A stretch of 64,000 nt of DNA, taken from assembly GCA_023382675.1 (NCBI GenBank), contig JAHDWN010000020.1, positions 50,535 through 114,534 on the forward strand, given 5' to 3'. Both the position numbers and the translations under genes were made by a program. Source of the stretch: Anaerolineae bacterium. GTDB lineage: Bacteria > Chloroflexota > Anaerolineae > Aggregatilineales > Phototrophicaceae. Below, one piece after another: positions 28,848-41,372 of this stretch; position 1 is the stretch's first letter; every line of letters begins with the position of its first letter. The notes under the pieces are model-generated. The model was not told the origin of the DNA. It saw only the letters and a program-made list of their open reading frames with translations, and searched no databases.

Positions 28848-29639
28848 TCAGTAGGCATCAGTCCGCTTGGATTGCGTTTGCACGCCGCGCATCCCGTTGA
28901 CAGTGGATACCGCAGCGCCACTCAGCAGCGCGCTGTCGGTCTGCAGCGTCACCATCTGCAACCCACGGGCGATCATCTTCTGGGCATAGCTCACGGAATT
29001 GCAGTGGATGCCGGTGATGATCCCATGCCGTTTTGCCGCCGCCAGAATCGCATCCAGCGCCGCCAGAAATTCATCATCCTCATTGTCCATGCCGCCCACG
29101 CCCATCAACGATAAGCGCAAATCGCCTGGCCCGATGTAGAACCCATCCAGCCCTTTGACGCTGGCGATCTCATCCACATTATCAAGCGCCTCTCTGGTCT
29201 CGATCATCGCCAGCGTCACCACCTCGTCATTGGCATGACGGGCGTAATCGTCGCCGTAGATGACTCTGGCGCGGGTTGGCCCCAGGCTGCGGATGCCGTC
29301 GGGGTGGTAGCGGCAGGCGCTGACAAACTGCTCACATTCGGCGCGGGTGTTGATCATCGGGCAGATAATGCCCATCGCGCCCGCATCCAACAGGCGCATG
29401 ATCGCTCCCGGCTCGTTCCAGTCGACACGCGCCAGCGCTACAGTTTCGGTGGTCGAGATGGCCTGCAACATATGGATGGCTGATTCCAGGCCCATCATGC
29501 CATGCTGCATATCGACGGTCAGGCTGTCAAACCCGGCATGGGCCATAACTTCGGTTGACCAGGTGCTGGGGATATGCAACCAGCCATTGAGTGTGGCTTT
29601 GCCGTCGCGCCAGGTCTGTTTGAGTGCGTTGCTTTTCAC
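28848..29639 (-). CDS. HpcH/HpaI-family aldolase (2-keto-3-deoxy sugar acid type)
   Basis: A 263-residue metal-dependent class II aldolase of the pyruvate-forming type. It retains the family's active-site positions: Arg in ALARVDW, His in VDMQHGMMG, Glu in LAMIETREAL and Asp in GPGDLRLS. Relatives cleave 2-keto-3-deoxy sugar acids or 4-hydroxy-2-oxoheptanedioate to pyruvate plus an aldehyde. It starts with a GTG overlapping the stop of the RACO-like gene by 4 bp and is the last gene of the operon, so it probably performs the carbon-chain cleavage. Confidence 0.88.
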   Translation of the reverse strand: MKSNALKQTWRDGKATLNGWLHIPSTWSTEVMAHAGFDSLTVDMQHGMMGLESAIHMLQAISTTETVALARVDWNEPGAIMRLLDAGAMGIICPMINTRAECEQFVSACRYHPDGIRSLGPTRARVIYGDDYARHANDEVVTLAMIETREALDNVDEIASVKGLDGFYIGPGDLRLSLMGVGGMDNEDDEFLAALDAILAAAKRHGIITGIHCNSVSYAQKMIARGLQMVTLQTDSALLSGAAVSTVNGMRGVQTQSKRTDAY

Positions 29640-31672
29640 GATTCAGGTCTCTTTCTAGCAGGATTACGTAAACGCGCGCGTGCCCGGCGGTCGGTGATGT
29701 TCGTTGTTGGCGACGACGCTGCCGCAGGCAGCTTGTCTTTCAGGTGCGGGAAGGCATCGGTGGAATGGGGCAGGGGGAGTGCTCCAACAAACGCTTCTTG
29801 AAAGCCAGCGTCCGTCGCCAGTTCGACATAGGCAACGTGATCGACAATCTGCCGGGCTTCCTGCCGTTTGTCCACGTTCAGCAAAGCGATGCGTGCGCCA
29901 TCCCCGGCAGCGTTGCCGACAGCATACACCTGGCGCAGATCGCAGTCATGGATCATGCCCAGGATCATGGCGCGCTCGGTATCGATGTGGCTGCCAAACG
30001 CGCCCGCCAGGACAATCCGATCCACGTGATCGACGCCCGCCCGTGCCATCATGAGCTTGATCCCGGCATAGAGCGCGCCTTTTGCCAGTTGGATGCTGCG
30101 AACGTCCTTTTGTGTGATCACAATCGCCTGTCCGTGCGCAGTCTGCTCGGCGTCAGCCAGGACGTAGGCAGCCACGTCGTCCTGCCACAGCAACCGGTCG
30201 CTCTGTAAATCGGGGTTAAAGCGCCCGTCCGGCAGCAGGATTCCCGCCAGGAACAACTCCGCTACCACGTCGATGATGCCGGAGCCACAGATGCCCACAG
30301 GGCGCACACTCGGCAAGCCATTGCTCACGTTCGACCACGATTCGCTGCCGATGATGCGAAAACGCGGCTCTCGAGTCTGCGGATCAATGCGGACTTTCTC
30401 AATCGCTCCAGACGCAGCGCGCATCCCGTGCGAGATCTGCGCGCCCTCGAATGCCGGGCCGGTGGGGCTGGACGCCGCGACCATCCAGTGCCGATTGCCG
30501 ATGACGACTTCGGCATTGGTGCCGACATCCACCACGAGTGAGATGTCCTCGCCCGTATGAGGCGATTCGGCCAGCAGCACCGCCAGCGTGTCCGCGCCGA
30601 TATGCCCACCCAGGGCTGGCAGCACGTACACCGATGCCGCCGGATTGAGCTTGAGCTTCAAGTCGTGAGCAGGCACATCCAGCGCATCGCGCGCCGCGAG
30701 CGCGAAGGGCGCACGCCCAATCTCAAGCGGCGAAATGCCCAGGAACAGGTGGGTCATGGTGGTGTTGCCGACCACAACCATGTCATAGATGTGCTCAGCG
30801 GCAACGCCAGCAGACTCCGCCGCGCTGGCAATCAGCCGATTCAGCGTGTCGATAATCGCGCGGTGGAGCGTGTCCAGGCCATTGGGCTGCATCATGACGT
30901 ACGAGATGCGGCTCATCACGTCTTCGCCGTGCGCCACCTGGGGATTCATCGCCGCTTCAGTGGCGAGCACTGCCCCGGTGCGCAGGTCGCATAGATGCGC
31001 TACGACGGTGGTTGTCCCAACATCCACGGCCACACCGTATACCGTGTCCTGGTAGCCAGGGCGTACATCCAGGATGTCTCGATCTTCCCGGAGGATGATG
31101 GTCGTCTGCCAATCACCGGCCCGCAGCGTCCTTTGAAGCTTGCGCAGCGCGTGCAGATTGATGCGCAGTCCGCTCAACTGGTGCTGTTGGGCCAGGGCGG
31201 CCTGGAGGCGCTCCCAATCGCCCGGCTGTACATCGAGCTTCGCTGGTTCGACCGTGACAAACAGCGGCCGCACCGCCGGTTTGATCGTCAATGGCCGCTG
31301 CGTGTTCGCGGATTTGCGGATGATCTGCTTGTGGGCGAGGCTGGTTTCTGGGACGGAGACCAGCAGGTCGCCCTCGATGCGCGCCTGACAGGCGAGCCGA
31401 AATGTGGCATTCACTGCCTTGTCGAACGACTGCTGCTCGCGTACCGTGGGCGGCGACAGGTGCGTTTCGTCGGAGGTGATGCCATGCTTGGGAAACTCGC
31501 CGCTTTCGATGTGGACGCGGCATTTGTGGCACGTTCCCTGCCCGCTGCAGATGGACTCCAACTCCACGCCCAACTGGCGGGCGGCATCCATCAAGAGCGT
31601 GCCGTCGGGGACATGTCCACGCAGGCCGGATGGCATGAAGATGATGTGATGCTGACGATCTCCGCTCATCAT
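29636..31672 (-). CDS. RACO-type corrinoid reductive activator (2Fe-2S plus ASKHA domain)
   Basis: A 678-residue protein. The N-terminal ferredoxin-like domain has C-x5-C-x2-C (CSGQGTCHKC) and a later Cys in LACQARIEG. A linker precedes an ASKHA ATPase-like region with GVAVDVGTTTVVAHLCDL, VVGNTTMTHLFLG and SLVVDVGTNAEVVIGN, and the C-terminal part reads IVLAGAFGSHIDTERAMILG. RACO proteins use ATP to return oxidised Co(II) corrinoid to Co(I) and are needed by O-demethylases and the CO dehydrogenase pathway. It overlaps both neighbours by 4 bp. Confidence 0.9.
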   Translation of the reverse strand: MMSGDRQHHIIFMPSGLRGHVPDGTLLMDAARQLGVELESICSGQGTCHKCRVHIESGEFPKHGITSDETHLSPPTVREQQSFDKAVNATFRLACQARIEGDLLVSVPETSLAHKQIIRKSANTQRPLTIKPAVRPLFVTVEPAKLDVQPGDWERLQAALAQQHQLSGLRINLHALRKLQRTLRAGDWQTTIILREDRDILDVRPGYQDTVYGVAVDVGTTTVVAHLCDLRTGAVLATEAAMNPQVAHGEDVMSRISYVMMQPNGLDTLHRAIIDTLNRLIASAAESAGVAAEHIYDMVVVGNTTMTHLFLGISPLEIGRAPFALAARDALDVPAHDLKLKLNPAASVYVLPALGGHIGADTLAVLLAESPHTGEDISLVVDVGTNAEVVIGNRHWMVAASSPTGPAFEGAQISHGMRAASGAIEKVRIDPQTREPRFRIIGSESWSNVSNGLPSVRPVGICGSGIIDVVAELFLAGILLPDGRFNPDLQSDRLLWQDDVAAYVLADAEQTAHGQAIVITQKDVRSIQLAKGALYAGIKLMMARAGVDHVDRIVLAGAFGSHIDTERAMILGMIHDCDLRQVYAVGNAAGDGARIALLNVDKRQEARQIVDHVAYVELATDAGFQEAFVGALPLPHSTDAFPHLKDKLPAAASSPTTNITDRRARARLRNPARKRPES

Positions 31673-40404: not shown

Positions 40405-41372
40405 GACATTCGCTCTCGCCTGCTCCGTAGTGGGGTAGCTGGATGTGCTCGCGGCAGCAATCCGGCTTCCTGGATGATCTCGGCGACCAGTTCCTCCTGG
40501 CGATAGGCCATCACGTGAATGCCGGAAACGCCCTCGATCTCGCGTATCTGCTGGATGATTTCGATGCAGATGCGCTTGCCCTCAGCGCGCTGCTGCTCTT
40601 TGGGGGTCTTGCGCAGCCGTTCGACGATCTCGTCAGGAATATGTACGCCCGGAACGCGCGTGCGCATGAATTCCGCCGCGTTGACCGACCGCAGCGGCCC
40701 GACGCCGATCAGGATGTAGACCTGCTCATGCAACCCCAGGTCGCGCACCTGGCGCATGAATTCGCGCAGGCGGGGGACATCGAAGCAGTATTGAGTCTGG
40801 ATGAAATCTGCACCCGCTTCCACTTTCTTGGCTAAGCGCAACGGTCGCCAATCGTAGGGCGGTGCGAAGGGATTGCAGGCCGCGCCGAGAAACAACTGTG
40901 GCGGAACGGTGATCTTGCGCCCGCTGAGGAATTTGCTCTCATCACGCATCATGCGCGCCACCCGCAGCAGTTGGATCGAGTCGAAGTCAAAGACGCGCTT
41001 CGCCCCTGGCTGATCGCCCACGGTCACGTCATCGCCGGTGAGCATCAGGACGTTGCGGACACCCATCGCCGCCGCCCCCAGCAGGTCGCCCTGGATGGCG
41101 ATCCGGTTGCGGTCACGGCATGACACCTGGAGCACTGGGTCGTACCCCGCGCGCACCAGCAGCGCGCAGATCGCCAGGCTGGACATGTGGCAGTTGGCTC
41201 CAGCGGCGTCGGTCGCGTTAATGCCGTCGCACACCTCGGAGAGCACCAGCGCAGCGTCATAGACTTCCTGCGGATCGGCACTATCGGGCGGGTTGAGTTC
41301 GGCGGTCACGGCAAAGTAGCCCGCTCTCAACACTTGCTCGAACCGGCTGCCGGCGACGTGGGGCGCGCTCAT
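40401..41372 (-). CDS. metF: Methylenetetrahydrofolate reductase
   Basis: A 323-residue TIM-barrel flavoprotein. FAVTAELNPPDSADPQEVYDAA is the MTHFR first strand with the catalytic Glu; MLTGDD, GAACNPFAPPYDWRPLRLAKKVEAGADFIQTQYCFD and GVGPLRS follow. It interconverts 5,10-methylene- and 5-methyl-tetrahydrofolate; here it probably oxidises methyl-THF made from the substrate's methyl group. First gene of the 13-gene leftward operon. The ATG at 41372 has GAGG upstream; the ORF-track extension to 41915 runs across the promoter. The operator lies 17 bp upstream of the start. Confidence 0.92.
   Translation of the reverse strand: MSAPHVAGSRFEQVLRAGYFAVTAELNPPDSADPQEVYDAALVLSEVCDGINATDAAGANCHMSSLAICALLVRAGYDPVLQVSCRDRNRIAIQGDLLGAAAMGVRNVLMLTGDDVTVGDQPGAKRVFDFDSIQLLRVARMMRDESKFLSGRKITVPPQLFLGAACNPFAPPYDWRPLRLAKKVEAGADFIQTQYCFDVPRLREFMRQVRDLGLHEQVYILIGVGPLRSVNAAEFMRTRVPGVHIPDEIVERLRKTPKEQQRAEGKRICIEIIQQIREIEGVSGIHVMAYRQEELVAEIIQEAGLLPRAHPATPLRSRRERMS

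Follow-up and report, generated by a model that had tools for sequence, protein, structure and literature searches.

Why would a corrinoid-dependent methyltransferase system be encoded within a sugar catabolic operon, and on what kind of methyl compound would it act? The question arises from a 64,000-nt stretch of an uncultured, anaerobic Anaerolineae bacterium (Chloroflexota; contig JAHDWN010000020.1), hereafter the window, in which positions 28848-41372 carry a 13-gene operon on the minus strand. A first-pass annotation had read this operon as a complete O-demethylase route that removes the methyl group of a methoxylated sugar or sugar acid and oxidizes it through folate. We found the system to be real, under shared regulation and widely conserved; it probably serves the LacI-regulated catabolism of a non-aromatic polyhydroxy compound that is O-methylated, the likeliest candidate being a methylated sugar or sugar acid. 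From the earlier interpretation, the component assignment, the link to a sugar-type core (by synteny and operator) and the folate sink stand; that the substrate is a sugar and an O-methyl compound is what we infer.

Adjacent genes of the operon overlap by 4 bp or are separated by 3-104 bp, and they lie in the following order:

28848..29639, minus strand: HpcH/HpaI-family aldolase (Pfam; nearest solved structures)
29636..31672, minus strand: RACo-type reductive activator (Pfam; 2Fe-2S cysteines Cys42/48/51/95)
31669..32079, minus strand: VOC/glyoxalase-fold protein (recurs beside UroD in Chloroflexota relatives)
32101..32754, minus strand: corrinoid protein, cap and B12-binding domain (Pfam; DIHDVG motif)
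32783..34024, minus strand: UroD-superfamily first methyltransferase, MT-I (Pfam; invariant H264-x-D266 and C349-H350)
34021..35454, minus strand: L-fucose-isomerase-like protein (E296, D321 and H444 invariant)
35553..36347, minus strand: SDR dehydrogenase
36363..37175, minus strand: creatininase-superfamily hydrolase, nearest IolN (best-conserved gene of the core)
37280..38206, minus strand: pterin-binding methyltransferase, MT-II, methyl-corrinoid:tetrahydrofolate (THF) (domain and PRK07535 match)
38216..39310, minus strand: Ldh2-type dehydrogenase of the malate/L-lactate/sulfolactate dehydrogenase family (Pfam)
39314..39805, minus strand: MetV-like zinc/Fe-S partner of MetF, DUF5981 (Pfam)
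39802..40404, minus strand: DUF1638 protein (Pfam)
40401..41372, minus strand: MetF, methylene-THF reductase, 323 aa (Pfam MTHFR)

All 13 open reading frames (ORFs) of the tightly overlapped operon described at first pass were found again, with strong Pfam matches to the named families (E-values: RACo_C, 4e-95; B12-binding, 8e-28; URO-D, 1e-21; Pterin_bind, 3e-27; MTHFR, 1e-36; DUF5981, 1e-27; DUF1638, 2e-24; Ldh_2, 6e-115; HpcH, 8e-34). The MetF start at 41372 was also correct: the N-terminal extension to a 504-aa ORF was rejected because its upstream part runs antisense to a genuine cupin gene (41655-42308, plus strand) that is conserved in relatives. The start of the corrinoid protein was moved from 32877 to near 32754, giving 217 aa. 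Two of the 13 genes, encoding the VOC protein and the IolN-like hydrolase, had been left unnamed, and the divergent plus-strand half (cupin, MetE-like, HisD-like, LacI, SDR, SGL lactonase, kinase and aldolase) had been missed. The system reaches past 41372, through a plus-strand operon at 41655-50961 and then, by shared operators, to about 61,900.

The four parts of a corrinoid demethylase, namely MT-I, corrinoid protein, MT-II and activator, are all encoded within this single operon, as had been claimed, and judged from sequence the assignment of the module is strong at the family level. DIHDVG of the corrinoid protein corresponds to the DxHxxG motif, and MT-II scored 334.8 bits against PRK07535, exceeding the cut-off of 259. 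The AlphaFold model of MT-I (pLDDT 84) has the UroD fold with MtaA (4ay7) as best structural match. Sequence likeness to MtaA/CmuA is only remote (TIGR01463, 41.0 bits; curated cut-off, 235.4), and a PDB profile search gave no close solved relative. In the alignment with the solved UroD 4wsh, H350 falls on the GHGI histidine. H264, D266, C349 and H350 are invariant across 12 MT-I orthologues, and the pattern HxD...CH was present in 32 of 32 fully aligning UroDs linked to the isomerase gene; one truncated copy retains HxD. Most of the unlinked proteins in a wider UroD set have HxC. A more distant UroD of Eubacterium callanderi, encoded 6 kb from the isomerase gene, has the site HxD...VH. According to Kountz and Balskus, His-Cys-Cys marks the S-methyltransferases of the UroD superfamily, and in the O-methyltransferases either a carboxylate or some non-coordinating residue takes the place of the cysteine (PMC10418091). 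The linked UroDs carry a carboxylate (HxD) in place of HxC, which fits, as indirect evidence, an O-methyl rather than an S-methyl substrate.

The composition of the module agrees with the Odm/Mtv type: a UroD-superfamily MT-I with a carboxylate-substituted metal site, a DxHxxG corrinoid protein, a clustered MT-II and a RACo-type activator. The acetogen Odm, Vdm and Mtv systems and archaeal Mto combine the same four components in one cluster; their substrates are methoxylated aromatics, whereas the genes of the window share their regulation with a sugar-type core and with transporters for sugars. The Cdm and Cmu/Mec haloalkane systems likewise pair a UroD-type MT-I with a corrinoid protein, and differ from the window, which has the HxD site, the linkage to the sugar core and no haloalkane gene context. 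Cmu uses a folate oxidation route. Type 1 mlp clusters also contain UroD-superfamily proteins and a corrinoid protein, with Ram/RACE as activator; they have at least two Mlps, His-Cys-Cys sites and no THF methyltransferase within 20 kb, in contrast to the window with one linked UroD, HxD and MT-II at 37280-38206 (PMC10418091).

Other corrinoid methyltransferase genes were also seen. Near the isomerase, two Desulfobacterota metagenome-assembled genomes (MAGs) encode UroD-like/corrinoid fusions (L094:11490-13295, 601 aa, Desulfobacterales; L103:16154-17998) of CmuA-like architecture, remote from the UroD of the window and without the C349-H350 pair. ORFs of the UroD type of ~650 aa that overlap a corrinoid-protein match and have HxC...VH sites in other Chloroflexota (L006, L007, L008 and L010) are probably fused methyltransferases for another substrate. 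In a gammaproteobacterial MAG, the operon is adjoined by genes for two methyltransferases of the MTTB family and for a further corrinoid protein (L106:11700-16315).

The link between the demethylase and the sugar-type core is physical and regulatory. A palindromic operator, TGMATACGTATKCA, is located after each of two divergent promoters in the region between MetF and cupin:

41373..41654, no strand: divergent control region (promoters on both strands)
41390..41403, no strand: perfect operator TGAATACGTATGCA, 24 bp before the MetF start
41604..41617, no strand: perfect operator TGCATACGTATTCA, 44 bp before the cupin start

The minus-strand promoter is TTGACA-18-TATATT (41434-41405) and the plus-strand promoter, read by eye, is TTGACA-17-TATAAA (41570-41598). 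These two operators are the only perfect copies in the 6.4-Mb genome. With two mismatches allowed, the window has 7 sites against 0.46 expected, and all 7 are within one mismatch; the five one-mismatch copies precede linked ABC transporter, SnoaL and HisD genes. Sites lie 24-76 bp before MetF, cupin, the substrate-binding protein (SBP) gene, SnoaL2, HisD2, SnoaL3 and the gene at 61849, and the site at 54814 lies 202 bp before the second LacI gene (LacI2). Across the genome, 7 of the 8 sites with at most one mismatch fall in the window; the eighth, on contig C4, has no related genes nearby and is probably due to chance. The operator recurs at the operons of relatives in five groups. Operon loci contain 42 such sites, compared with 1 when the pattern is reversed as a control, and isomerase-like loci outside the operon context contain none in 520 kb. 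The latter group consists of isomerase homologues of 36-39% identity (L126-L162 and similar), set aside after the five that were checked proved to be without operon context. In Faecalicatena orotica, sites before UroD (13 bp), TRAP genes and Ldh2 are the only perfect ones in the genome. Thus, one palindrome is common to several promoters in a cluster that contains lacI genes, as in a LacI-regulated regulon with predicted LacI sites. Apart from synteny, nothing ties the demethylase to the core more strongly than this shared operator, which the first-pass annotation did not include. No riboswitch was matched in Rfam at the gathering threshold.

Conservation was assessed in an unselected comparison of 396 genomes of the class (Anaerolineae); the other loci were picked by the isomerase. 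Isomerase orthologues (60-75% identity) occur in 13 of the 396 genomes, UroD (at least 62%) in 10 and both in nine, that is, the isomerase is present in 9 of 10 UroD-bearing genomes versus 4 of 386 others (Fisher 1e-14). In the tenth UroD genome (G424), a single contig that lacks the isomerase carries UroD, the corrinoid protein, RACo, VOC, LacI, the ABC transporter, kinase, cupin, MetE-like, SGL, HisD and SDR. The search for the operon in other genomes that had been proposed at first pass was extended to named genomes, where the core (Ldh2/creatininase/SDR/isomerase/HpcH), mostly with UroD beside the isomerase, recurs in six bacterial groups: Chloroflexota, Gammaproteobacteria, Desulfobacterota, Spirochaetota, Bacillota and, as one MAG, Actinomycetota. 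Cultured gut carriers are E. callanderi and F. orotica. Over 45 loci drawn by the isomerase plus the window, the tallies were isomerase 44, UroD/corrinoid protein 35 (two genes merged), Ldh2 31, creatininase 31, SDR 31, HpcH 28, LacI 22, SGL 18, MT-II 11, kinase 7, MetE-like 5, RACo 4, DUF1638 3, MetF 2 and MetV 2. Isomerase and UroD distances are correlated (rho 0.42; 0/300 permutations), to which shared descent also contributes.

The sugar-side enzymes were assigned at the family level, with IolN, SftI/FucI, sulfolactate dehydrogenase and HpaI/GarL as nearest families, and all score under the curated equivalog cut-offs. The closest solved relatives of the aldolase are HpcH/HpaI hydroxyketoacid aldolases (6r62/7o5i, 199 bits). 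The isomerase is distantly related to FucI (42.9 bits; cut-offs, 775-850) and scored 62.3 bits against SftI (cut-off, 700); the creatininase-superfamily hydrolase scored 183.6 bits against IolN, the 3-dehydro-scyllo-inosose hydrolase (cut-off, 245), and the Ldh2-type enzyme 254.3 bits against L-sulfolactate dehydrogenase (cut-off, 500). Sulfosugar catabolism was rejected, the SftI- and sulfolactate dehydrogenase-like scores being far under the cut-offs. Several Bacillota have TRAP transporters with the core, and a Lachnoclostridium locus has a GntP permease within the operon. TRAP and GntP transporters usually carry acids or sugar acids, and their presence beside the core hints, by analogy, at a sugar acid as the leading substrate class. 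A Spirochaetota locus (L113) additionally has GAPDH and PGK, which is consistent with triose products.

Two further genes recur near the core. A 4HBT_2 thioesterase-like gene lies between SDR and isomerase at L096:2330-2767, with homologues in six further Chloroflexota operon loci, and aldehyde:ferredoxin oxidoreductase-family genes cluster with six operon loci, including L094:16150-18024 (the one checked with Pfam), L099, L113 and L163.

The plus-strand operon and the outlying operator-linked genes are as follows:

41655..42308, plus strand: cupin protein, conserved in relatives (missed at first pass)
42323..43471, plus strand: MetE catalytic-domain-like methyltransferase (H248-x-C250, E282 and C346 invariant)
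43504..44835, plus strand: HisD-family dehydrogenase
44854..45867, plus strand: LacI-family regulator
45830..46627, plus strand: SDR dehydrogenase 2
46624..47517, plus strand: SGL/gluconolactonase-family lactonase
47533..48651, plus strand: double SnoaL-like protein, recurrently linked
48724..50112, plus strand: SBD_N/NBD_C acid-sugar kinase
50116..50961, plus strand: class II FBA-type aldolase
51044..54480, minus strand: ABC sugar-type transporter, two permeases and SBP (operators 54534 and 54814 upstream)
55022..56023, plus strand: second LacI regulator, LacI2 (orthologue inside the operon in most relatives)
56867..61718, no strand: operator-linked outlying genes, SnoaL2 (site 58066), CN hydrolase and HisD2 (site 59127), SnoaL3 (site 61767)

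Starting from these genes and families, the fold and motifs of MT-I, the synteny and the shared operators, we propose the following route, in which the direction of the reactions and the order of the sugar steps are our reading. The substrate would be taken up by the ABC transporter. The UroD-type MT-I would activate the methyl ether at its His/Asp(/Cys/His) metal site and transfer the methyl group to Co(I) of the corrinoid protein, RACo would re-reduce corrinoid that has slipped to Co(II), and MT-II would pass the methyl group to THF. The freed polyol or sugar acid would undergo SDR/Ldh2/HisD oxidations, SGL lactone hydrolysis, isomerization, hydrolysis by the IolN-like enzyme and cleavage by the HpcH/HpaI aldolase, with the acid-sugar kinase handing fragments to glycolysis. 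Plausibly, the SDR would form a lactone that SGL opens, after which Ldh2 would oxidize the product and HpcH would cleave it by a retro-aldol reaction.

For the methyl group, the host genome has genes of the Wood-Ljungdahl pathway, with a CODH/ACS cluster (CODH, AcsB-type, gamma and delta subunits, AcsE- and AcsV-like, MetF) on contig C51 and Fhs on contig C79. Because both are present, methyl-THF could either be oxidized towards formate by the MetF/MetV of the operon or be used for acetyl-CoA by the CODH/ACS. The folate sink claimed at first pass is therefore borne out, and oxidation is one of two candidate directions of flow after THF. The CODH/ACS cluster adjoins histidine-degradation genes (urocanate hydratase and formimidoylglutamase-like; L029).

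Several observations weigh against a methylated sugar or sugar acid as substrate. Substrate and activity are read from genes, the sugar-side enzymes all fall under their curated cut-offs, and UroD homologues are numerous in these genomes, with varied substrates. GH67 alpha-glucuronidase was found in 0 of the 13 isomerase-bearing class genomes (28 of 396 overall, with GH67 as the one family counted), so 4-O-methylglucuronate from xylan is not supported. RACo, MetF, MetV and DUF1638 adjoin the core in few relatives; the word "complete" thus describes the window, which has all the parts, and few other loci. Two Clostridia (L117 and L122) have the core, with TRAP, LacI, Ldh2, SDR, isomerase, SGL, HpcH, creatininase and kinase, and no UroD match at 1e-30. 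Because the core occurs there without this demethylase, co-conservation breaks for the genes that return the one-carbon unit; it holds for UroD and core. For the same reason demethylation looks like an add-on, and we infer that the core serves to break down a compound in unmethylated form and that the corrinoid module may let it accept the methylated form.

Four other explanations were weighed. A methyl ether on a cyclitol (pinitol, ononitol or similar) is a sub-case of the favored explanation, in which SDR oxidations would yield a diketo-inositol that the IolN-like enzyme opens. That this enzyme is nearest IolN and is encoded by the best-conserved gene of the core speaks for it; the IolN cut-off is not reached, the minimal core has two dehydrogenases only, and the aldose-ketose-isomerase-like gene, SGL lactonase and TRAP/GntP transporters suit sugar acids better, which leaves the cyclitol unlikely. 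An aryl methyl ether of the lignin type, with the sugar genes acting on the sugar moiety of a phenolic glycoside, would match the known UroD-superfamily O-demethylases OdmB, VdmB and MtvB, which act on methoxylated aromatics with the same four components (PMC13222342, PMC8630106). E. callanderi, which carries a version of the system, is reported to demethoxylate aromatic acids. However, no aromatic-catabolism or aromatic-ring gene and no glycosidase was seen in the annotated neighborhoods, and TRAP/GntP and sugar ABC transporters repeatedly accompany the core, whose best-conserved enzyme is an IolN/creatininase-like hydrolase; we regard an aryl ether as improbable.

An S- or N-methyl compound or a methyl halide, with a UroD like MtaA/MtsA, Mlp or CmuA and sugar genes for the demethylated skeleton or for an independent co-regulated pathway, seems a similarly poor prospect. 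Here MtaA as best fold match of MT-I, the CmuA-architecture fusion beside the isomerase in the Desulfobacterales locus, the MTTB-family genes flanking one gammaproteobacterial operon and the thiol-type HxC site of the linked MetE-like enzyme are set against the HxD sites of the linked UroDs, the 41 bits (cut-off, 235) in the MtaA/CmuA model and the presence of a THF methyltransferase, unlike type 1 mlp clusters. A chance gathering of mobile catabolic genes, with methyltransferase and sugar genes functionally unlinked, could be suspected from MAG data and from a core that can occur without this UroD. It is very improbable given the isomerase/UroD co-occurrence, their correlated divergence, synteny across groups and the shared operators, including that 13 bp before UroD in F. 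orotica.

Plant and algal polymers commonly contain methylated sugars and sugar acids, and the enzymatic sugar demethylation found in the literature needs oxygen: in porphyran degraders, an aerobic P450 demethylates 6-O-methyl-D-galactose and releases the sugar for catabolism (PMC10033563). The outcome would be the same for the system described here, but the P450 route is oxygen-dependent and formaldehyde-releasing and uses unrelated enzymes (PMC10033563). No report on corrinoid demethylation of sugars or cyclitols was found in a partial coverage of the literature. We see an even chance that the system is an undescribed anaerobic pathway, spread over six or more bacterial groups with cultured gut bacteria among them, in which O-methylated sugars or sugar acids are demethylated by corrinoid enzymes, the methyl group enters folate and the Wood-Ljungdahl pathway, and the skeleton enters a new isomerase/IolN-like/hydroxyketoacid-aldolase route. 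If so, a corrinoid route would explain methyl removal from such sugars in anoxic sediments and guts, UroD-type O-demethylases would extend beyond aromatics, and acetogenesis would gain a methyl source. A conserved sugar core with uncharacterized chemistry accompanies the demethylase, and the cultured carriers make this interpretation testable.

Three observations concern other genes. The short MetE-like enzyme (42323-43471) has an intact HxC...E...C zinc site and is cupin-linked; it was also found in L025, L068, L100, L110 and L228, and it could hand the methyl group of the corrinoid to a thiol. Double SnoaL-like proteins (about 340-390 aa) are encoded at 47533-48651, 56867-58003, 60564-61718, 61849-62856 and 62881-63978 of the window, and recur beside the operon in several groups (L094, L104, L110, L115 and others), some copies being preceded by an operator. 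A 1663-aa ORF at 11131-16122 (minus strand) has GAF and HisKA_3/HATPase domains and encodes a sensor kinase of very large size.

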